Below, piece after piece: positions 14,503 to 46,470 of a stretch of DNA of 64,000 bases. Every line of letters begins with the position of its first letter. Position 1 is the stretch's first letter. The DNA comes from Deferribacteraceae bacterium V6Fe1 (GTDB lineage: Bacteria; Chrysiogenota; Deferribacteres; Deferribacterales; Deferrivibrionaceae), in NCBI GenBank assembly GCA_022813675.1, contig CP063375.1, positions 694,001-758,000 of the forward strand, in the 5' to 3' direction. The notes under the pieces were generated by a model. The model saw nothing but the letters and a program-made list of their open reading frames with translations, was not told the DNA's origin and made no database searches. Made by a program: the position numbers and the translations under genes.

Positions 14503-17500
14503 TTAACACTCATCATTTTCATCCTGAAGTCCATTGCCTGATATATTAAAGAATCTATCAAAAAATCTTGTCAATTTATCGATAACGCTCTCACGTTTTT
14601 TTGTTCTAATGGCATCTTTAGAAAAACGAGTGACAGTAGGTAATATTTTAGTTATACTTGTTCCTGTTGTGGGAATATTTCCGTTTCTAAAGGCATTCTG
14701 AATGAATTTATATGTTTCATCATGATTAAGCTTTTCTTCCTCAATAATCTTTTCCAATTCCTCTTTTTTCTTCTCTTCTACAAATTTTATCCAATCGTTG
14801 TCCACTACAGAAGAAATATCAAGGGAATGAATAAATTTCTCAATAAGGTCTTTTTTATTTCTGAGCTCAACACTCGAATCAATAGCTTTACTGATATCTA
14901 TTAAGATTTCTTTGTTTTTGATGTGGTCTTCGTGATATTTCTTTATTAGCTCTAAAATATAATCGATATTAATCTCAACCTGTTTAATTAATTCCATTTC
15001 AAAAACGAGGTCGTCGTTAATGTTTTCTTTTTCATTGTCTTTTCCTTTTCTAAATTCATTATATAGATCGATATATATGCTATGATAATCCTGAGTATCT
15101 CTTTCTGAAAGAATTTCATTGCCAATAAATTCATCAAAAGTAGCTAAAATATTGCGAAGACGTAAAATTTTGCCATAGAGTTTAATAAAATCTTTTTGTT
15201 TTTGTTCTTCTACAATTCTTTCACCAATTGGAAATTTTTCCAACAACTCACCAACCAACTCTTTATACCCTATTAACTTATCATTTTCATTTTCATATCC
15301 ATTATAATACTCTTCATAAGTCTTTAATAATACTATCCCCCTTGCTTCTTTATCTCCAAATAAAGAAATAGCTTCGTTAGTTGCTTTTTCCAAGTTTCGA
15401 AAACAAACAATATTCCCGAAAGTTTTTATGCTGTTTAAAATACGATTAGTTCTTGAATATGCTTGAAGCAAGCCATGCAATCTCAAATTTTTATCTACCC
15501 ATAGTGTATTTAATGTTGTAGCATCAAATCCAGTTAGAAACATATTTACCACTATAAGAATATCAATTTCCCTGTCTTTTACTCTTCTGCTAACATCTTT
15601 ATAATAATTTTGAAATTTATCAGGAGTAGTATCATAAGAAGTTCCAAACATTTCATTGTAATCCCTGATAGCATTTTCCAGAAAGTCTCGCGAGCTTGTA
15701 TCCAGTCCGCTGGTATCTTCCGAGTTTTCATCGACAGTTCCGTCGGGTTCTTCTTCGTTTGCAGCATAGCTGAAGATGATAGCAATTTTAAGCTTTTTAC
15801 CATCAGGCAAATTATTTAATTGTTTCTTAAATTCTGCATAATATTTTTTTGCCATATCGATTGATGCCGTTGCAAAAATAGAGTTAAATCCGGCAAGTCT
15901 TCTGTCTTTGAGTTTATAAAAGGTGTTTCGTTTTGTTTTTTGATCAAAATGTTCAAGAATGTACTTAACAATGTTGCTTATTCTTTCTGGAGCCGAAAGC
16001 GCAGCTTCCTTGTCAATATTAGGGACTTTTTCATCCTCAATATTTTCAGCTTCTTTCATTGTAGACACATAATCTACTTTAAATGGTAAAACATTTTTAT
16101 CAGCGATTGCATCTACTATTGTATAAGTGTGCAATTTATCTCCAAATACTTGCTCTGTTGTTTTTAAATCTACTCTGCCAGAGGAAGAAGCATTAACTGC
16201 AAAAATTGGTGTACCGGTAAAGCCGAAAAGATGGTATTTGCTGAATGCCTTGGTAATGGCGGCGTGCATGTCTCCAAACTGAGAACGGTGGCATTCGTCA
16301 AAAATTAAAACTATATGACCGTCAAAGATTTTATGCCCTTTATTTTGCTTAATGAATCTATCCATTTTCTGAATAGTAGTAATAATTATTTTTGCATTTG
16401 GGTCTTCTAATTGTTTTTTTAATACACTAGTGCTTGTATTACTATTTGCCGCTCCTTTCTCAAATTTATCATATTCTTTCATAGTTTGATAATCTAAATC
16501 TTTTCTATCTACAACAAACAAAACTTTGTCAATGTAGGGCAAGTTACTTGCCAATTGTGCTGTTTTAAAACTTGTTAAGGTTTTTCCTGATCCGGTTGTA
16601 TGCCAAATGTAGCCACCCGCATTTATTGTCCCATATTGTTTATAATTTGTGCTTACCTGTATGCGGTTAATAATTTTTTCGGTGGCCACAATCTGGTAAG
16701 GTCGCATTACCAACAGCTGATTTTCTGTGGTGAATACACAATATTTGGTAAGAATATTCAGAATGGTGTGTTTGGCAAAAAAGGTTTTGGTGAAATCCAT
16801 TAAATCGGTAATGGCTTTGTTTTGCTCATCGGCCCACCAGCTGGTAAACTCGAAGCTGTTGCTCGCACGTTTACCTTTTCTTTTTGTCCCATGCTTTAAT
16901 TCTTCTATATGCTCAAATCTTGTGGTGTTACTGTAATACTTGGTATGTGTTCCATTAGAGATAACAAATATTTGAATGTACTCAAACAGCCCGCTTGCCG
17001 CCCAAAAGCTCTCGCGCTGATAGCGGTTAATCTGGTTAAAAGCTTCCTGAATGGCAACACCCCGGCGTTTTAGCTCAACATGTATCAGCGGCAAACCGTT
17101 TACCAAAATGGTAACATCATAACGATTTTTTCTTTGTCCTTCTTCTGTTTCGTACTGGTTAATAACTTGCAGCGTATTGTTGTGGATGTTTTGTTTATCC
17201 AGCAGGTAGATGTTTTTAGTGCTCCCATCCTCACGTCTTAAAATTTTTACATAATCTTCCTGTATGGTTCTGGTTTTTTCAACAATACCCTGGTTTTGGT
17301 TTGCCAGCTCTTGGGTAAAAAAGTCGTTCCACTCGTTATCGGTAAATTTGTAATTATTCAGTTTTTCCAGTTGCACCCGCAGATTTTCAATCAGGTCGGC
17401 TTCGTTATGTATTTTAACATATTCATAGGCCTGAATTTGCAGCTGCCTGATAAATTCACGTTCCAGCTCGGCCTCGCTCTGGTAATATTCGGCACGATAT

Positions 17501-17577
17501 TTGTAATCAACAACATATTCTCTTAAAACCGTGCTTTCAGTGTTTTGAGAAATTATTTCGTAGTTTTTATTAGTCAT
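14503..17577 (-). CDS. hsdR: Type I restriction enzyme, restriction/translocase subunit HsdR
   Basis: Cleavage and DNA-translocating subunit of a type I restriction system. The N-terminal PD-(D/E)xK nuclease shows Asp154 and Glu168-x-Lys170 (VELKRRG). The SF2 motor has HTTGSGKT at about 326-333 and DECH at about 427-430; a helical C-terminal region follows. Start chosen at ATG 17577, which has a GGAAG site; a longer frame from 17613 would run into the upstream gene. The N-terminal third is about 50% GC in places while the rest is near 28%, suggesting a mosaic origin. Confidence 0.95.
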   Translation of the reverse strand: MTNKNYEIISQNTESTVLREYVVDYKYRAEYYQSEAELEREFIRQLQIQAYEYVKIHNEADLIENLRVQLEKLNNYKFTDNEWNDFFTQELANQNQGIVEKTRTIQEDYVKILRREDGSTKNIYLLDKQNIHNNTLQVINQYETEEGQRKNRYDVTILVNGLPLIHVELKRRGVAIQEAFNQINRYQRESFWAASGLFEYIQIFVISNGTHTKYYSNTTRFEHIEELKHGTKRKGKRASNSFEFTSWWADEQNKAITDLMDFTKTFFAKHTILNILTKYCVFTTENQLLVMRPYQIVATEKIINRIQVSTNYKQYGTINAGGYIWHTTGSGKTLTSFKTAQLASNLPYIDKVLFVVDRKDLDYQTMKEYDKFEKGAANSNTSTSVLKKQLEDPNAKIIITTIQKMDRFIKQNKGHKIFDGHIVLIFDECHRSQFGDMHAAITKAFSKYHLFGFTGTPIFAVNASSSGRVDLKTTEQVFGDKLHTYTIVDAIADKNVLPFKVDYVSTMKEAENIEDEKVPNIDKEAALSAPERISNIVKYILEHFDQKTKRNTFYKLKDRRLAGFNSIFATASIDMAKKYYAEFKKQLNNLPDGKKLKIAIIFSYAANEEEPDGTVDENSEDTSGLDTSSRDFLENAIRDYNEMFGTSYDTTPDKFQNYYKDVSRRVKDREIDILIVVNMFLTGFDATTLNTLWVDKNLRLHGLLQAYSRTNRILNSIKTFGNIVCFRNLEKATNEAISLFGDKEARGIVLLKTYEEYYNGYENENDKLIGYKELVGELLEKFPIGERIVEEQKQKDFIKLYGKILRLRNILATFDEFIGNEILSERDTQDYHSIYIDLYNEFRKGKDNEKENINDDLVFEMELIKQVEINIDYILELIKKYHEDHIKNKEILIDISKAIDSSVELRNKKDLIEKFIHSLDISSVVDNDWIKFVEEKKKEELEKIIEEEKLNHDETYKFIQNAFRNGNIPTTGTSITKILPTVTRFSKDAIRTKKRESVIDKLTRFFDRFFNISGNGLQDENDEC

Positions 17578-17581
17578 AATA

Positions 17582-18091
17582 TTACTTCCATTTATATTCT
17601 TTAAGAAAGCCATTAAATGTATCTATAAATAGCTGCTTGGATTCTTTACTTAATTCTTTGTTTTCTAAGTCTGATAATCTATCATGGCTATATAAATTTA
17701 AGACTTTTGTTGACTCTAATCTATTTTCATCTTTAATACAATCAGCCCAGTTATTATAGCCTAAAAAATTAGCTGTTTTTTCCAACAAACTTCTGAAAAG
17801 ATTAAAATGATATTTCTTAATATTGCCAGTATTAATAGCATTTTGAATTTCATCTTTTATTATTAAATGATAGCCAAAGGGTGAATCATTATCCCACTTA
17901 AAAAAGTCTTCCAAATAGGCATTATAACACAAGGCATTATCTTCTTCCGATTCAGCAAAAAAATTAGACAACCGTGTTTTCCCGGTAGAATTAAAGGCAA
18001 ATAATGTTGTTACATTAATTTTATTACTGCCTGAATCAAAACTATCTTTTATATGTTTAGCTACATCTTCGATGTTATTAAATTCACTCAT
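17582..18091 (-). CDS. Internally deleted ATPase-like protein in the PrrC/RloC position
   Basis: A 169-aa product lying between hsdS and hsdR, where anticodon-nuclease or AAA-type accessory genes often sit. Residues 31-39 (FAFNSTGKT) look like the P-loop of PrrC/RloC-type ABC ATPases. Residues from about 93 onward (YHFNLFRSLLEKTANFLGY, then LNLYSHDRLSDLE) resemble the C-terminal end of the same large proteins. The signature motif, Walker B and the central domain are absent. The join lies near residue 68-72. It appears to be an in-frame deletion derivative; whether it works is unknown. The family match is from memory. Confidence 0.6.
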   Translation of the reverse strand: MSEFNNIEDVAKHIKDSFDSGSNKINVTTLFAFNSTGKTRLSNFFAESEEDNALCYNAYLEDFFKWDNDSPFGYHLIIKDEIQNAINTGNIKKYHFNLFRSLLEKTANFLGYNNWADCIKDENRLESTKVLNLYSHDRLSDLENKELSKESKQLFIDTFNGFLKEYKWK

Positions 18092-18092
18092 T

Positions 18093-18683
18093 TTACACAG
18101 CCTTTTGAGGTTTTTCTTTAAATGTTAAAAGTTTCTCCCTGTAATACTCATACTGCTTTTTTCTTGCTTCCAGTTCGGCTTCCAGTTCGGCTTCCAGTTC
18201 GGTAAACCTATCCAATATTTTTACTATTTCCTCCTGGATGGGTAGCGGCGGGAGGGGGATGAGGAGATGAGAATATTTTGAAATCCAATGCCTTGTGTGG
18301 TCTTGTGCTTCAAAATTAATACATTTCATCGCGTAATAAATAAATCTAAAATTACAATCAACATCTTGTTTTAATTTAATAATCTTAAGTGCAGATGATT
18401 TAACTTTAAAAGAAAAATCAACCCAATGAAAAGATGTTGTAAAATCATCAAATATGATTACTGGATTATCTTTATTAGCATTAAAAATTCCAAAATCTTC
18501 ATTTGTGTATCCTAAAATAAAGCTTTTGCCTGCAGTTAAAACAGGAATCTTGAAGTCTTCCGAATATTTTGTAGATTTTACAATATATCTACTTGGCTGT
18601 ACATAATCTAAAACCTCGCCCAACTCCTTAAACTCCACCCCCTCGGGGCATAGGTGTTGTATCAATTGTTCTATTTTGTTCAT
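18093..18683 (-). CDS. hsdS: Type I restriction specificity subunit HsdS, half-length
   Basis: DNA-recognition subunit. It opens with the HsdS-typical MNKIEQLIQHLCPEGVEF, has one target-recognition domain, then a conserved stretch (LIPLPPLPIQEEIVKILDRF) and a coiled-coil helix. At 196 aa it is half the usual size and holds only one recognition domain. It would have to dimerise to replace a two-domain HsdS, and would then read a symmetric bipartite target. The helix contains three ELEA tetrapeptides encoded by perfect 12-bp repeats. Start at ATG 18683 is set by GGAGG five bases upstream. Confidence 0.88.
   Translation of the reverse strand: MNKIEQLIQHLCPEGVEFKELGEVLDYVQPSRYIVKSTKYSEDFKIPVLTAGKSFILGYTNEDFGIFNANKDNPVIIFDDFTTSFHWVDFSFKVKSSALKIIKLKQDVDCNFRFIYYAMKCINFEAQDHTRHWISKYSHLLIPLPPLPIQEEIVKILDRFTELEAELEAELEARKKQYEYYREKLLTFKEKPQKAV
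18166..18201 (-). repeat. Three perfect 12-bp tandem repeats in hsdS
   Basis: GCTTCCAGTTCG occurs three times without mismatch (18166-18177, 18178-18189, 18190-18201). On the coding strand it encodes ELEA x3 in the helix after the recognition domain. The layout resembles the TAEL-repeat spacer of EcoR124I, where copy number sets the gap in the bipartite target. Confidence 0.9.
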
Positions 18684-18824
18684 TGTTACCTCCGTTACCA
18701 TACGCTTATTTTACTGAATAATCTGTAATTTTCACGGCTTTAAGTCCTTTCTTTTGACTTTCAAAATGTCCAGTTTATTACATAATTTACTGGACAAATA
18801 TACAACTCTCCTGCACCATTAATC

Positions 18825-18866
18825 ATTTCTAATTCGCAATTAAACATTTGTAATTCGTAATTGAAC
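18825..18866. repeat. Two 21-bp imperfect tandem repeats between hsdM and hsdS
   Basis: ATTTCTAATTCGCAATTAAAC (18825-18845) is followed directly by ATTTGTAATTCGTAATTGAAC (18846-18866), with three differences. The pair ends at the hsdM stop. The rest of the gap (18684-18824) shows no gene. Confidence 0.75.
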
Positions 18867-18867
18867 A

Positions 18868-20424
18868 TCACTGTTCAAGCTCTTCCACAATCTTATCAAT
18901 ATCTGTTCTCAGCTGGTTTTGCCGTTTTACAATTTCAGCAATCTTTTTATTGAGCTCTTTAATGTCAATTACCTCGCGGGTGTCTTCCTGCTCCACATAG
19001 CTCGATACCGATATGTTGTAGTCGTTTTCGGCAATAGCTTCATTTTTAACCAGTTTGGCAAAATGCTCGATATCCTCGCGGGCAATGTAGGCATCCAGTA
19101 TTTTTTTGATGTTTTCGTCGGTTAGCTTGTTTTTATTGCCGCCGCGGACAAACTCCTTCGAAGCATCGATAAAGAGGGTTTTGTTATCCTTTTTACTCTT
19201 TTTAAGCACAATAATGCAGGTGGCAATGGTTGTGCCGAAGAACAAATCGGGCGGCAGCTGAATCACGCAATCCACATAGTTGTTATCAATCAGGTACTTT
19301 CTTATTTTCTGTTCTGCGCCGCCACGGTAGAGCACACCGGGGAATTCAACAATGGCTGCCGTTCCCGAGGTGGAAAGCCAGGCAAGCATGTGCATAACAA
19401 AAGCTAAATCGGCTTTGCTTTTGGGTGCCAACACTCCGGCCGGCGAAAAACGGGGGTCGTTAATCAGCAAGGGATTGCTGTCGCCCTCCCATTTAATTGA
19501 GTAAGGGGGATTGGAAACAATGGCATCGAAAGGCTCGTCGTCCCAATGTTTGGGGTCGGTGAGGGTATCGCCGTGGGCAATATCGAAATGGTTGTAGTTA
19601 ATATCGTGCAGAAACATGTTGATGCGTGCCAAGTTGTAGATGGTCAGGTTGATTTCCTGCCCGAAAAAGCCCTGGCGTACATTTTCTTTGCCCAGTATTT
19701 TTGCAAATTTTAGCAGCAAGGAACCCGAACCGCAAGCGGGGTCGTAGACCTTATTTACTTCCTTTTTGCCAACCGTTGTTATTCTGGCCAAAAGCTCGCT
19801 TACCTCTTGCGGGGTAAAAAACTCGCCACCCGATTTACCGGCATTGGCGGCATACATGGTCATCAGATATTCGTAGGCATCGCCAAAGGCATCAATGTTG
19901 TTATCGGCGTAGTTGCCCAATTTCAGGTTGCCGATAGCTTCGAGCAACTGTGCCAGCTTTTTATTTCGCTGTTCAACGGTGCTTCCCAGCTTATTGGAAT
20001 TTACGTCCAGGTCGTCAAACAGGCCTTTAAGATCATTTTCGCTTTCTGTTCCTTTTGCAGACGCTTCAATATTTTTAAACACTCTTGCAAGTGTTTCATT
20101 TAAGTTAGGATTATTGCGTGCATTTTTGGCAACGTTCACAAACAATTCACTTGGTAAGATATAAAATCCTTTTTCTTTAACAGTATCAGCTCGTCCAAAT
20201 TCAGCATCTTCATCAGATAATTTTATGTAATCAAAATTTGGGTCAGGTTCATTTTCATTAATATATTTAGTAAGATTTTCACTGATAAAACGATAAAAGA
20301 GTATGCCTAAAACATATTGCTTAAAATCCCAGCCATCAACGCTTCCCCTTAAATGGTTGGCAATTTCCCATATAGACTTATGTAATTCAGCTCTTTCTTG
20401 CTCTTTTGTAATGCCATTTGCCAT
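18868..20424 (-). CDS. hsdM: Type I restriction-modification DNA methyltransferase HsdM
   Basis: N6-adenine methyltransferase subunit that protects host DNA and is also needed for restriction. The N-terminal helical bundle is followed by SAM motif DPACGSGS at 228-235 and catalytic NPPYS at 305-309. The length (518 aa) is normal for the family. A GGGAGA site precedes ATG 20424. Composition changes inside the gene: a sample line in the middle is 53% GC while one near the 5' end is 22%, so the gene is probably a recombinant. Confidence 0.96.
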
Positions 20425-40269: not shown

Positions 40270-40280
40270 AAAATAATTTT
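40270..40280. repeat. Target-site duplication of the IS element, left copy
   Basis: AAAATAATTTT at 40270-40280 recurs at 41699-41709 on the other side of the element. An 11-bp duplication is in the range for IS4/IS231-type elements. Confidence 0.75.
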
Positions 40281-41698
40281 CTGTAGTCTCCCCGTTTTTT
40301 TCATACTATATGGCATAGTGAACTTTTTGGGAACAAGAAATCTTCTATTGTCAGTTGTTTTAGTTTATTTTTCTTTCGTCGCCTGTGAAGATATAATGTC
40401 TTAACTCCAGCAAAAATATTTCTTACACCCCTTAAAAGTGTATAATAAATAAACTGAGGTCGTTTCTTCTTTTCGGGTTTTGAGGCAAGAACTACTTCTT
40501 CTCGTAATATTTCATCTTCATTAATATCAACCAGTACAGACCAAGCAAGCATTACTGCACCAAGCATTGACCTTATTGAATTAAAATTTCTTATTATTGA
40601 TTTCTCTATGCCAAAGCCTTGCTTTTCAAATCTATAACTTTCTTCTACTCCCCAACGTCTATAATAGCCACGTATTCTCCTCTTAATTTCTTCTGATTTA
40701 CTTAAATGTCCATTGGTTAAAAATATATGGGATTCTTTATTAAATTCTCCTTTATGTGATATTAGGGTGACAGGATATAATTTTGATTTAATTTCTATAA
40801 AGCATTTCAAATATCCATATCTAAAATGTTTTCCGTTTTTATATCTTCTATTTATAGATTTATTTAACTCTTCAATATTTACGCTTTTCCCTTTATAAAT
40901 TAAATGACGGTTGGTCTTCATTCTCACAATAAAACTTAAACATTCTTTTAGGAAATAGCCAAGATAAGCTCCATTATCATAGCCCCTATCCATTACCCAT
41001 AAGCCTTTTTTACCAACATTAGTTACAAAACTTTCTACACTTTTTAAGCCTTCTGTATTAGCACTCTTAAAATCTTTACTCTCTGTGCTGTACATCCCAA
41101 GATAAGCAGGATAAGTTTGATTACTTTTGTCATCAAATAAACTTATCTGATTCAAATAATAACCCTCGAGATATTTACCTGTGCTACCATCTCTCACTTT
41201 ACAGGACTGCTCAAAATTATTAGCAAATAAATGGCTTATATCTCCATCATCAAGGGCTATTATTGTACTATCATCTACTTTAGTAGATGCTTGTGATAAT
41301 AAATAATCATTAGCTAATTCAAGTAAATTAGTCTTACCCTCAAGATGATTAAACAAACGTTTCATAGTGTTTTTAAGTTTTATTTTCTCATTCAGGCTTC
41401 TTGATATTTCAGTAATGTTACAATTTCCTGTTATTAATACCCCTGATACTAGTTCCAGAATGAATTTACCATATGGTAGACTTACCTTACCTTCAAAGTT
41501 ATGGACCATTACTCTAATTTTTCCCTTCACTTTTTTTAATAATTCAGTCATAATTAAACACCTCTTTTTGTTTGGTTGTTAGTTGTTTATGCAAATTCAA
41601 CTATACCAGCGAAAAGAGGTACTTACAACTATTTTATTACAATTTCTTACATAAAACCAATCAGTTACATAATTCCATTAAAAAAACGGGGAGACTGC
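40281..41698 (-). mobile_element. IS4-family insertion sequence, complete
   Basis: A 1.42-kb element with 19-bp terminal inverted repeats (40283-40301 and 41680-41698; core AGTCTCCCCGTTTTTTT, one mismatch). It carries a single intact transposase gene and is flanked by the 11-bp duplication AAAATAATTTT. Two extra bases at the left tip make the exact left boundary uncertain. Intact gene and near-identical ends suggest recent insertion. Confidence 0.85.
40301..41551 (-). CDS. IS4-family transposase
   Basis: DDE transposase of 416 aa. Catalytic aspartates lie in ALDDGDISH and VMDRGYDNG. The YREK signature (Y-2-R-3-E-6-K) is exact within YYRRWGVEESYRFEKQ. The stop codon reaches into the left terminal repeat. 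The reading frame is uninterrupted, so it is probably active. Confidence 0.93.
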   Translation of the reverse strand: MTELLKKVKGKIRVMVHNFEGKVSLPYGKFILELVSGVLITGNCNITEISRSLNEKIKLKNTMKRLFNHLEGKTNLLELANDYLLSQASTKVDDSTIIALDDGDISHLFANNFEQSCKVRDGSTGKYLEGYYLNQISLFDDKSNQTYPAYLGMYSTESKDFKSANTEGLKSVESFVTNVGKKGLWVMDRGYDNGAYLGYFLKECLSFIVRMKTNRHLIYKGKSVNIEELNKSINRRYKNGKHFRYGYLKCFIEIKSKLYPVTLISHKGEFNKESHIFLTNGHLSKSEEIKRRIRGYYRRWGVEESYRFEKQGFGIEKSIIRNFNSIRSMLGAVMLAWSVLVDINEDEILREEVVLASKPEKKKRPQFIYYTLLRGVRNIFAGVKTLYLHRRRKKNKLKQLTIEDFLFPKSSLCHIV

Positions 41699-41783
41699 AA
41701 AATAATTTTTAAACAATCAAACAGACTTAAAAGATAAAAAGGGATTAATGGCTACGCATATTAATCCACAACATGAACTTAAC
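41552..41783. other. IS right end and intergenic spacer
   Basis: Contains the IS upstream region and right terminal repeat up to 41698, the right duplication 41699-41709, and an 8-bp hairpin GGATTAAT/ATTAATCC (41742-41767) just before the next promoter. No gene. Confidence 0.6.
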
Positions 41784-41877: not shown

Positions 41878-42309
41878 ATGGGGATTGGATTTTCACAAGA
41901 TTTGCCATCACCTGATGCAAAAAGTGTATGGAGCTATATCAAGGATGTCGATTATACCAAGTGGGAGCTTTTCCCCGGTACCACATATATGTACAAGGGG
42001 CAAAGCCCGCATGGTGCATATTTAACATCTTTTATAAACAAGCCCGGCAGTAGTAGCTTATCAGACAGTGAATTTGCCAACGGCACAATTATAGTTAAAG
42101 AAAACTATATGTCAGATAAGAAATTAGCCGCCATTACAGTGATGTATAAATATAAAGGTTACAATCAAGATGCCGGTGACTGGTTTTGGGGTAAGTATTC
42201 ACCCCAAGGTGAAGTTCAGGCAAGTGGTAAATTGCCGCCTTGTATCGGTTGCCATAGTGCAGTGAAGGATTCTGATTGGTCATTTTTGAAAAGTAATCTT
42301 AAAAAATAA
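41878..42309 (+). CDS. Cytochrome P460-family haem protein
   Basis: Small periplasmic c-type haem protein related to cytochrome P460 and cytochrome c'-beta, families tied to NO or hydroxylamine chemistry. The haem motif CIGCH lies near the C-terminus. The family core (IIVKENYMSDKKLAAITVM, GYNQDAGDWFWGKY, split here) is complete. The frame as given starts within the signal peptide (MGIGFSQ) because the true start at 41835 is shifted by one base. It has its own promoter and terminator. Confidence 0.85.
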   Translation: MGIGFSQDLPSPDAKSVWSYIKDVDYTKWELFPGTTYMYKGQSPHGAYLTSFINKPGSSSLSDSEFANGTIIVKENYMSDKKLAAITVMYKYKGYNQDAGDWFWGKYSPQGEVQASGKLPPCIGCHSAVKDSDWSFLKSNLKK

Positions 42310-42459: not shown

Positions 42460-44208
42460 ATGAGTATGAACAAGCAAATTAAAGATATAATTGAAAGCTT
42501 AAATCTAAATATTGTCAATGAATTTGATGAAAATGAAATTATTGAGTGCAAGAATTTTTATTTTGATAATCTTGGCTATCATTTTGTCAAATATCAAGAA
42601 AATAGTATTTTATTGCTAAAAGGGATTTATAAGGATTTCGTTAGAGTTATAAAAGGGGAAAAGTTTTTAAAAGACAGCGAGTTTACAAAACTTTCGGAGC
42701 TTTTGTCTGACATAGAGAAAAATATAGGGCAGACATTTAGCGCCAAAGTTGTTAAAGGGACAAAGGACTTAGTCGATATTACATTGGCGGATAATTTTGA
42801 AAAATTATCAGTGAAAGACAAGCTTTTTGTGAGCAAACCGCTTTCAGGGGTAGAATACAGCATTTGCAGGAATGATAATGCTGATTATGATAATCTTTAT
42901 TTTTCATCGATTTTCAAGGATATTTTCCCTTTTACGGTTACGCCTCTGACTGCATCAATTTTAAACAGTATTCCTGAAGTTTTGTCGGTAATTTTTGCGC
43001 ACGCAAGTTTTAGGGTCTATTCCCCTTCTGTTAAGCTTTTGTGGGGGAAAGTTTATGGCAGCTTGAGTACATATCATATGGCTTTTGAATCTTTAAATGC
43101 CGGAGATTCGCTACTAAAGTTAAACTATTCTCAATTTCGCTATCTGAAGGATAAAAAGAAGAAGCTGAAAAATCCTAAAATATCTATGCTTGGGATTTCA
43201 GAGGATGAGATTAAGGAATTTATACAAGAGGCTAATGAAAAGGCAGATTGTATTGATGAAAAATATATATTTGAACCTGAGTTTTTAGAGCATATCTCAC
43301 TTTTATTTCTTGCGGCACAAATGATTTTTTTAAATTTTATCAGTCAGTTTATGAAAATACATGATGAAGTTGAAAATGTGGATAATACGTTGAGACTCAT
43401 TTACAAGACAAGAGCAAAAAGTCCATTTTTTTCAAGTAATGAGATTGATGTCCCTGAATCGTTTGATTTTAGCTCAGACTTGCTGAAAATGTGTGTTTTT
43501 TGCGGCGAGAAGCCATTATCGCCTAATGAGGAGATTAAAAAGTATTCAAAGCTTAATGTTTTTAAAAGAAAAAGATTGGATGGTTTTGTTGCGGAAATTC
43601 ACAAAACTCTTGATTTGAGGGATGAGCTTTCTTTTGCTTCTGTGAGAGTATTCTCTAAGATAAAAAGTGTGTTGGATAAATTGTCGGAAAAACTTCTAAG
43701 CGAATCTAAAATCAAACATAAAGACACTATTTATTACCTTGAATACAATGACTTAAAAAATATTTTGGATGATAACTACTACGGTAATATACAATTCACA
43801 TATTTCTTTAAAAAATGGCAAACCGAACGGTATAAAATGCAGATAGTACCGTATGAGATATTTGAAAAGGATATACCTGATGTGGAGAAAATAGCAAAAG
43901 GGATTATCGGCAAGCTGTTGAATCAAAAAGAGTTTGACGTTTTGTCATTCTTTCACAAAGATGACTTCAACGGGGACTTAAATGATGTTCGGATATATAA
44001 AAATTTAGCTTTTCTGAAAGATAACTGCAAAAAGCCTGTTATTACTGATAATATATCTTTGCTTTCATACGCCATTGAGTATGCAGCTATAAATGAAGTA
44101 CCTGTGTATGCAGGTATCAGATTCCCTGAGATTGTTCTCAAAGAGAGAAAATTTTTTGTGAGTGAAAATAAGCTAAAAATAAGCGGCGGAGAAGGTCTTG
44201 GCAAATAG
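42460..44208 (+). CDS. Degenerate PEP-utilising-enzyme-like protein of unknown function
   Basis: A 582-aa soluble protein. The middle resembles the linker of PEP synthase/rifampicin phosphotransferase proteins: FPFTVTPLTASIL, VKLLWGKVYGSL and, later, KDTIYYLEYNDLKNIL. The C-terminus resembles the swivelling phospho-histidine domain, but the usual LSHAAI reads LSYAIE, so the phosphorylated histidine is missing. The first ~140 residues replace the ATP-binding domain and match nothing I know. It is probably a non-catalytic relative. No good ribosome-binding site precedes the ATG. The end overlaps or abuts an ADP-ribosylglycohydrolase gene. Confidence 0.6.
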   Translation: MSMNKQIKDIIESLNLNIVNEFDENEIIECKNFYFDNLGYHFVKYQENSILLLKGIYKDFVRVIKGEKFLKDSEFTKLSELLSDIEKNIGQTFSAKVVKGTKDLVDITLADNFEKLSVKDKLFVSKPLSGVEYSICRNDNADYDNLYFSSIFKDIFPFTVTPLTASILNSIPEVLSVIFAHASFRVYSPSVKLLWGKVYGSLSTYHMAFESLNAGDSLLKLNYSQFRYLKDKKKKLKNPKISMLGISEDEIKEFIQEANEKADCIDEKYIFEPEFLEHISLLFLAAQMIFLNFISQFMKIHDEVENVDNTLRLIYKTRAKSPFFSSNEIDVPESFDFSSDLLKMCVFCGEKPLSPNEEIKKYSKLNVFKRKRLDGFVAEIHKTLDLRDELSFASVRVFSKIKSVLDKLSEKLLSESKIKHKDTIYYLEYNDLKNILDDNYYGNIQFTYFFKKWQTERYKMQIVPYEIFEKDIPDVEKIAKGIIGKLLNQKEFDVLSFFHKDDFNGDLNDVRIYKNLAFLKDNCKKPVITDNISLLSYAIEYAAINEVPVYAGIRFPEIVLKERKFFVSENKLKISGGEGLGK

Positions 44209-44266
44209 ATTTAGTGAAAATTTTGACAAAGTCTCTGACTGTCTTCATTCAAAGGAGGTTTTATCA

Positions 44267-45160
44267 GTGCTTAATGAAACTGACTTTGAAGTTGCAGACA
44301 GGGTCAGGGGGATGATTGCCGGAAATATTATCGGAGATATGTTAGGGCTCCCTTTAGAGGGTAAAAGTGGAAATATAGGGCCCTACCCACCTTTAGAACT
44401 AAATGAAAAATGTACCACGGAAATAAAAGAGCTAATCTGGAGTGATGATACCTCAATGCTGATGGCTTTGGCTGCTTCTCTTTATGAGTCAGGCGGAAAA
44501 GTAAATACGGACAGTGAAAGAAAACATTACTTAAAATGGTTTTACGAAGGTAAATACACTCCTAATGGCAGATCTTTTGGGTATGGCAATACGACAAAGG
44601 AGGCTTTGATTTCCGAAAAGGCGGGCACTGACAGAAGCTCTAATGGTAATGGTGCACTGATGCGCTCTTCTGTTATAGTTCCTTATTATTTGAAAAAAAC
44701 TGATAGGGAGCTTGATGAGGCAAGCGCTGATTCATGTGCTGTTACGCATGGGCATCCTGTGAGTATTTTTACAAATATGATTTACACGTACATTTTGAAA
44801 AAACTTATTTATGGATATTCTTTTGAAGAAAGTTTAACCCTGGCAAAGGCCAGATATTACGATATAATTGGCGACATAAATGAAATTTTTGAAAAGCCGG
44901 TTTTTTATACTACGACTGCCTATTGTGTGACTACGCTTCAGACATCCGTGTATGTGAATCTGGAATCAGACAATTTCGAGGAAGCTGTTGTAAAAGCAGT
45001 TAATCTTGGTGGTGATGCCGATACTATAGGGGCTGTGACAGGCGCTTTGGCCGGAGCAGGGTACGGGTTTGAAAGTATAAATGAAAGGTATAAAGGTGCA
45101 GTGTTAAGCGTGATAAGAGTTTATCCTGCACTACAAAAATTTTTTAAAGGGATTCTTTAA
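44267..45160 (+). CDS. ADP-ribosylglycohydrolase family protein
   Basis: DraG/ARH-type hydrolase that removes ADP-ribose from proteins or small molecules. Metal ligands are present in WSDDTSML near residue 70 and GGDADTIGAVTGALAG near the C-terminus; the N-terminal RVRGMIAGNIIGDMLG is typical. I place the start at GTG 44267, which has AAAGGAGG seven bases upstream and fits the family's short N-terminus. A TTG at 44198, overlapping the upstream gene by 11 bp, is the alternative and would add 23 residues. Confidence 0.88.
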   Translation: MLNETDFEVADRVRGMIAGNIIGDMLGLPLEGKSGNIGPYPPLELNEKCTTEIKELIWSDDTSMLMALAASLYESGGKVNTDSERKHYLKWFYEGKYTPNGRSFGYGNTTKEALISEKAGTDRSSNGNGALMRSSVIVPYYLKKTDRELDEASADSCAVTHGHPVSIFTNMIYTYILKKLIYGYSFEESLTLAKARYYDIIGDINEIFEKPVFYTTTAYCVTTLQTSVYVNLESDNFEEAVVKAVNLGGDADTIGAVTGALAGAGYGFESINERYKGAVLSVIRVYPALQKFFKGIL

Positions 45161-45171
45161 AGGGGTGGACA

Positions 45172-46470
45172 ATGACCAATTATGTGCTTGATACTAATGT
45201 GCTACTTTATGACCCAAATGCGGTTTACGGTTTTAATGGAGATACGCTCAATATACCGATTACTGTAATCGAAGAGATAGATTATTTCAAAAAGAATATG
45301 GATCAGACAGGCTACAATGCAAGGTATATTGCCAGATTTCTTGACGAACTTAGAAAAGAAGGGGATTTGAGAGAAGGGGTCAAACTCGAAAACGGGACAA
45401 CGGTAAGGGTCAATGTGTGCAATGATCATCTGGCATCTAAAATTTCAAGTGATTTAATAAAGGACAAAGCAGACAACCTTATACTTTCTGTGGCGTTGTG
45501 GTTGCAAGAGAACGAGAAAAAGGAAGTCGTCTTTGTTACAAAAGATGCAAATCTCAGAATCAAGTCCGATGTTTTAGGGATTAAAGCCATTGATTATGAG
45601 AAAGATAGAGTTGAAACAGACAGATTTTTTGAAGGGACAAAAGTAATTACGGTTAAAGATGAGTTTGTTGACAAGCTATACAATAATGAGGTTGTTAAAT
45701 TAGAAAAAGAGTTTTTACCAAACGAATATTTAAGAATAGAGTCTGAACTGAACCCCAAAAAGAGTGTGTTGGTAAGATTTGATAAAGTAAGTAACGGATT
45801 GGTTAAAATAAGGGAGTTTAAAGAGGGGCTTTGGGGTATAATTGCCAGAAATTCCGAGCAAAGATTCCTCTACGATGCTTTGACCAATGATTCCATAAAG
45901 CTTGTCTGTATCGCAGGTATAGCAGGGACAGGTAAGACACTTTTGGCTATTGCGGCAGGGCTTGCCAAGACTATAGATGAGAAAAAGTATCGTAAGCTTT
46001 TGGTTTCAAGGCCAATTTTCCCGATGGGGAAAGATTTGGGTTTTCTCCCCGGTGAAATAAAAGATAAGCTTGCCCCGTGGATGCAGCCGGTTTACGACAA
46101 TTTGAGCTTTATCCTTGAAAATACAAATGAACAGTCAACATACAAAGAGCTTTTTGAGCAAAATCTTGTAGAGATAGAAGCACTGACATATATCAGGGGG
46201 AGAAGTATTCCCAATCAATATTTTATAGTGGACGAAGCCCAAAATCTCACCCCTCACGAAATTAAAACAATACTTACGAGAGCAGGTGAAGGGACAAAAA
46301 TTGTGTTAACAGGTGACCCTAATCAAATTGATAATCCTTATATTGACTACTACACAAACGGGCTTACTTATGTTATGGATAGATTTAAAGATGATGAGAT
46401 AGCTGCCGCGGTAACACTCCTTAAAGGGGAAAGGTCAGTTTTGGCAACCAAAGCGGCTCAAAAACTTTAA
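45172..46470 (+). CDS. PIN-domain/PhoH-type ATPase (PhoH2-like)
   Basis: A 432-aa fusion of an N-terminal PIN ribonuclease (YVLDTNVLLYD, later DNLILSVAL) and a C-terminal PhoH ATPase (GIAGTGKTLLAIAAG; VDEAQNLTPHEIKT; LTGDPNQID). PhoH2 proteins unwind and cleave RNA. It starts 11 bp after the ADP-ribosylglycohydrolase stop, so the genes may be cotranscribed. Its physiological target is unknown. Confidence 0.92.
   Translation: MTNYVLDTNVLLYDPNAVYGFNGDTLNIPITVIEEIDYFKKNMDQTGYNARYIARFLDELRKEGDLREGVKLENGTTVRVNVCNDHLASKISSDLIKDKADNLILSVALWLQENEKKEVVFVTKDANLRIKSDVLGIKAIDYEKDRVETDRFFEGTKVITVKDEFVDKLYNNEVVKLEKEFLPNEYLRIESELNPKKSVLVRFDKVSNGLVKIREFKEGLWGIIARNSEQRFLYDALTNDSIKLVCIAGIAGTGKTLLAIAAGLAKTIDEKKYRKLLVSRPIFPMGKDLGFLPGEIKDKLAPWMQPVYDNLSFILENTNEQSTYKELFEQNLVEIEALTYIRGRSIPNQYFIVDEAQNLTPHEIKTILTRAGEGTKIVLTGDPNQIDNPYIDYYTNGLTYVMDRFKDDEIAAAVTLLKGERSVLATKAAQKL

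Follow-up and report, generated by a model that had tools for sequence, protein, structure and literature searches.

What does a protein built like a phosphate-transferring dikinase do without its phospho-histidine, and why is an ADP-ribosylglycohydrolase encoded directly behind it? Such a gene pair lies in the stretch of Deferribacteraceae bacterium V6Fe1 DNA that we analysed (64,000 nucleotides, positions 694,001 to 758,000 of contig CP063375.1; hereafter the window). The first gene, PEPX (42460..44208, plus strand), is an open reading frame of 582 aa whose product resembles rifampicin phosphotransferase (RPH) and is termed here a pseudo-dikinase. The second gene, ARH (44198..45160, plus strand), opens with a TTG start and encodes an ADP-ribosylglycohydrolase of 320 aa. 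The two frames overlap by 11 nt (44198..44208), and a PIN-PhoH gene starts at 45172, 11 nt past the end of ARH. This is the arrangement given by a first-pass annotation of the sequence, which interpreted the pair as a non-catalytic scaffold working together with a de-ADP-ribosylating enzyme.

The same annotation also pointed out the PIN-PhoH gene. We rejected it as a third component because it follows ARH in the window's genus alone. On the upstream side, argB directly adjoins PEPX in both congeners; in the window the two are separated by an insertion sequence with a DDE_Tnp_1 transposase (40271-41710, with 34-nt imperfect terminal inverted repeats at 40271-40304 and 41677-41710) and by a cytochrome P460-like gene (41878-42309).

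No Pfam model matches PEPX significantly, and PF01326 (PPDK_N) not at all. In NCBIfam, PEPX weakly matches RPH-like 'PEP synthases'. Among 23 PEPX relatives from the order Deferribacterales (alignment A1), 14 match PRK06241 (models.1-3, named PEP synthase; best E value 2.1e-7) and three weakly match the rifamycin phosphotransferase model. The sole sensible PDB match to the PEPX profile is RPH (hmmsearch, E = 0.036), in two collinear stretches: residues 65-108 align weakly with the end of the RPH ATP-grasp domain (region 267-310), and residues 334-437 align with RPH 610-714. Against a profile of five RPH/PEPS-annotated genes found on plasmids, hhalign returned 91.5% probability (E = 8.5e-7) over residues 369-569. 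The AlphaFold model, built with eight sequences (pLDDT 77.8, pTM 0.75), gave six top Foldseek matches in the PDB that are all RPH (E < 1e-8; 5fbt at 7.8e-11), followed by ATP-grasp lobes and chance matches only, at E 0.1 or worse.

Foldseek and hhalign both recover the RPH-type central domain and C-terminal swivel fold in PEPX. The central domain (residues 127-439; 42838..43776, plus strand) is the equivalent of the rifampin-binding (substrate) domain of RPH, and the swivel-like domain (residues 490-575; 43927..44184, plus strand) is placed by hhalign to the RPH swivel and by the model. The N-terminal 112 residues (42460..42795, plus strand), modelled as four strands, a helix and two strands, resemble the closing portion of an ATP-grasp domain whose partner lobe is missing, and they lack the RPH DIEW and Q-RP motifs. 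By structure and profile, PEPX is thus a distant relative of RPH and not a PEP synthase proper. The pattern of PEP synthase and RPH first attributed to the protein holds accordingly, by fold and profile, for RPH but not for PEP synthase, and the predicted fold is not an unrelated one. Likewise, the N-terminus had been described as something other than an ATP-binding domain, with no ATP-grasp similarity expected in a structure prediction. It is indeed not a complete ATP-grasp, but its weak matches to ATP-grasp lobes point to a one-lobe remnant and not to something wholly unrelated.

The features required for phosphate transfer have mostly been lost. In the hhalign alignment, LLSYA of PEPX lies against LMTHG of RPH, so that Tyr537 (44068..44070, plus strand) occupies the catalytic-His position and RPH G-G-L-M-T-H corresponds to I-S-L-L-S-Y; the replacement of LSHAAI by LSYAIE, already noticed at first reading, is thereby confirmed. 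This position varies among 41 relatives (Y in 23, L in 5, F in 5, H in 4, P in 3 and A in 1). The glycine-rich loop of the RPH swivel is absent, and the N-terminus has only about 112 residues compared to about 314 in a complete RPH ATP-grasp. ATP-grasp-less subunits are known from the two-component phenolic dikinases, where HpeH, CreH and PpsA share with PEPX the substrate-binding and swivel domains and a similar length (PMC12167813). Unlike PEPX, however, these subunits retain the catalytic histidine, and each is paired with a separately encoded ATP-grasp protein (HpeI, CreI and PpsB; PMC12167813). By the RPH alignment, the counterpart of the HpeH catalytic histidine, H581, is again Tyr537, and exchange of this histidine for Gln in HpeH abolishes all activity (PMC12167813).

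The substrate-side residues are retained in part. Four residues of RPH form its substrate-phosphate set, Gln337, Arg666, Glu667 and Lys670, of which PEPX keeps the arginine and the acid. In RPH, Arg666 and Glu667 contact the substrate phosphate and the catalytic His (PMC4844700); two independent profile alignments agree in placing Arg387-Asp388 of PEPX (43618..43623, plus strand) at their positions. Asp388 is invariant (41/41 relatives), and position 387 is Arg in 34 of the 41 and Lys in 3 more. Lys670 and Gln337 (the block-1 Gln, whose position was assigned by hand alignment anchored on the Pro-Leu that comes after it) are not kept, and the chemistry of the cleft has therefore changed. Further near-invariant positions are N37, K54, E86, E132, P189, S190, R318, D336, H381, R457, P464, D471 and G552. 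In comparison with RPH (for example RPH-Lm, 5FBT/5HV1), PEPX agrees in how the central and swivel domains fold, in domain order and in having the Arg-Glu/Asp pair, but at about 10% identity. Taken together, the variable His position, the lost glycine-rich loop, the truncated ATP-grasp and the lack of a partner ATP-grasp protein in our searches (see below) support the earlier prediction that PEPX is probably non-catalytic as a phosphotransferase.

Despite this loss, PEPX is widely conserved. Of 51 phylum genomes examined, 42 carry it: these are 42 of the 46 from the window's order, Deferribacterales, and none of the five from outside the order. A scan of a genome collection matched only Deferribacterales MAGs, including Calditerrivibrio, although with a single, insensitive peptide pattern that does not prove absence outside the order. 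No PEPX homolog was found in phage and plasmid searches. Both genes are under purifying selection when compared to the congener G012 (dN 0.067 and dS 0.66 for PEPX, dN 0.082 and dS 0.70 for ARH), with a dN/dS around 0.1 for each.

The product of the second gene matches PF03747 (ADP_ribosyl_GH) over the full model (E = 1.4e-50), and the metal motifs WSDDT (44438..44452, plus strand) and GGDADT (45008..45025, plus strand) are intact in the alignment, together with HGHP, so the hydrolase is metal-complete as first described. Based on its sequence, ARH belongs to the ADP-ribosylglycohydrolase superfamily and is predicted to cleave an ADP-ribosyl bond. Its nearest solved structures are DraG, Lmo0067 and 6dre, the last from the ADP-ribosyl-(dinitrogen reductase) hydrolase family. 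Of the named models, those of the arginine-type hydrolases Tri1 and DraG come closest.

ARH shares superfamily and metal motifs with DraG but has an additional, conserved tail at its N-terminus. At roughly residue 12, before the hydrolase fold, V[SA]DC[LM][HQ][SK] is found in all 13 PEPX-linked ARHs (VSDCLHS in the window, residues 12-18; 44231..44251, plus strand), while none of the seven DraG-type paralogs that we examined has V[SA]DC[LM][HQ]. AlphaFold models residues 1-30 at low confidence, with no confident packing of the tail against the hydrolase. The tail resembles a short linear motif and may bind another partner, for which PEPX would be the obvious candidate.

We rejected the possibility that ARH is itself the DraG of these bacteria: DraT (PF07357) is missing from the window's genome and from five other genomes with both PEPX and ARH, and where relatives do have DraT, a separate DraG adjoins it. 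KptA/Tpt1 (tRNA 2'-phosphotransferase, PF01885) was rejected as the source of the ADP-ribose, since it is found in none of the 51 genomes. ARHs are also encoded beside ATP-grasp-related genes in the case of the R2K ATP-grasp ligases; the resemblance lies in the gene neighbourhood, R2K being peptide-ligase ATP-grasp proteins, unlike the RPH-type PEPX (PMC4431377).

How tightly are the two genes linked? Orthologs of ARH (E of 1e-91 or better; the next ARH-type matches are at 4e-32 or worse) are found in 13 genomes spread over four families (f1, f2, f3 and f5), and in 13/13 the ortholog is the next gene 3′ of PEPX, at a distance of -11 to +14 nt. The surroundings vary: f1 has argB/pcm and PhoH-gmhA-mfd, f2 and f3 have unrelated genes, and f5 has a flavodoxin-like gene and a fructose-bisphosphate aldolase gene, both named from their sequences. 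The ARH and PEPX trees agree in their branching at family level, the distances are correlated (r = 0.85), and mapping the ARH state on the PEPX tree takes three steps, for which a single gain and two losses could account. The linkage is strict and vertically inherited. With relatives of PEPX in 42 genomes, low dN/dS and adjacency in every case, the observation is more than chance, and a search for the pair across genomes, as proposed in the first-pass annotation, did not find the relatives always unlinked.

The linkage is one-sided. The ARH ortholog is missing from 29 of the 42 PEPX genomes, and for example in two genera of f5 (g5 and g8) PEPX is mostly found at the same site, next to the same two neighbours, without ARH. 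PEPX must therefore do something useful alone. Because ARH occurs only next to PEPX and PEPX often occurs alone, ARH depends on PEPX and not the reverse. Few residues differ between PEPX with ARH and PEPX without it, so no clear interface is visible.

These 29 genomes, with PEPX kept in part at the same locus, speak for the dull rival explanation that co-transcription is all the two genes share, ARH serving unrelated detoxification or repair and PEPX having a separate job. Nevertheless, ARH orthologs are never found away from PEPX although the surroundings change from family to family, which leaves this explanation unlikely while retaining some credit. As the ortholog is always a neighbour of PEPX, a shared job is likely. 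The earlier claim that both proteins work together is in this sense made likely by the adjacency, but it does not extend to the majority of PEPX genomes, which have no ARH.

Our preferred reading, to which we give somewhat less than even credence, is that PEPX is a pseudo-dikinase that binds a ligand or a protein and that ARH, where present, removes ADP-ribose from the partner of PEPX. PEPX would have kept the substrate cleft and swivel fold of an RPH/HpeH-type small-molecule dikinase while losing both the supply of phosphate, with the cut ATP-grasp, and its carriage, with the His. It would then act by ligand or protein binding in nearly every member of the Deferribacterales. In the four families, ARH, translated right after PEPX, would strip ADP-ribose from a partner bound by PEPX, and its conserved short tail could dock on PEPX; we infer the ligand binding, the docking and the common target. 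A more specific proposal is that the pseudo-dikinase serves as a substrate receptor, its former antibiotic- or phenol-binding cleft capturing an ADP-ribosylated small molecule or protein and handing it to ARH docked via VSDCLHS. We consider this version unlikely; if true, Deferribacterales would have a new system of their own for removing ADP-ribose.

To our knowledge, no dikinase of the RPH/HpeH group has been described other than as a phosphorylating enzyme. The retention of PEPX across the order after the loss of this chemistry would thus point to an unrecognised binding role of the RPH-type fold. Similarly, the presence of a dedicated hydrolase where DraT is missing suggests an ADP-ribosylation process for which we found no description, and the pair may offer a concrete entry point to this process in Deferribacterales. 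By sequence, PEPX and ARH are each members of a known superfamily. In a literature search conducted largely outside the subscription journals, we found no paper on a His-less RPH-type protein, its order-wide retention or its dedicated ARH, and none connecting an ADP-ribosylglycohydrolase with PEP synthase or Deferribacter.

The main mechanistic rival is that PEPX, or its complex, is itself the ADP-ribosylated protein, with ARH as its private reactivator in the way that DraG serves nitrogenase reductase. Strict adjacency and co-inheritance would fit such a relationship, as would the affinity of ARH to the arginine-type hydrolases and the presence in PEPX of conserved arginines (R62, R318 and R457). 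These arginines are, however, equally conserved in PEPX proteins without ARH. Moreover, no ADP-ribosyltransferase is linked to the pair, and the DraT and KptA/Tpt1 families are both absent from the window's genome. We therefore regard this explanation as rather improbable.

Some ARHs, Tri1 among them, act as immunity proteins. The match of ARH to the Tri1 model and the variable presence of ARH between families could accordingly suggest that the pair defends against foreign ADP-ribosyltransferases or confers immunity to them. Against this, neither PEPX nor ARH matches a PADLOC model, PEPX is order-wide and free of phage and plasmid homologs, and inheritance is vertical. A defence role is consequently very unlikely, and a mobile or defence origin of the pair was rejected on the PADLOC and phage/plasmid results.

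Finally, we searched for an ATP-grasp protein that could supply PEPX with phosphate. In the window's genome PF01326 identifies PPDK only, and among the 19 genomes of families f6 and f7 that carry PEPX it identifies no protein, which makes an in-trans phosphate donor unlikely; a concealed ATP-grasp partner was rejected on these grounds. That PEPX still transfers phosphate through His381 and such a donor, like HpeHI or phenylphosphate synthase, is the weakest explanation and highly improbable: His381 is kept in 40/41 relatives and ATP-grasp-less RPH-like subunits with separate partners do exist in HpeH, CreH and PpsA, but His381 lies in the central helix outside the swivel in the AlphaFold model, HpeH is killed by His to Gln (PMC12167813), and PPDK_N proteins are missing altogether from the 19 genomes.

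In f6 and f7 (genomes G030-G048; loci L042 and L053-L070) not even PPDK is present, yet PEPX is retained, usually near dnaA and in f7 adjoining purC. Elsewhere in the order and phylum we observed PPDK_N proteins of 850-914 aa (L116-L131, one PF01326-bearing ORF each), absent from the window's genome. We rejected these as partners, as a search for the phospho-histidine motif found none in them and they are unlinked to the pair. Several of them begin with SG-x-x-x-LD-x-IL...GDNVVW, similar to a RecA/KaiC-type NTPase. The genome G026, which has no PEPX, encodes a 783-aa protein (L133, 1150-3498) with a swivel-like end, GGANSHMAIRCHELGIPAAIG, in which the His is intact. The window also contains a type I restriction-modification locus (14503-20424) with a short specificity subunit of 202 aa; a 169-aa ORF there contains FNSTGKTRLS, which resembles a P-loop, and may be what is left of an accessory gene.
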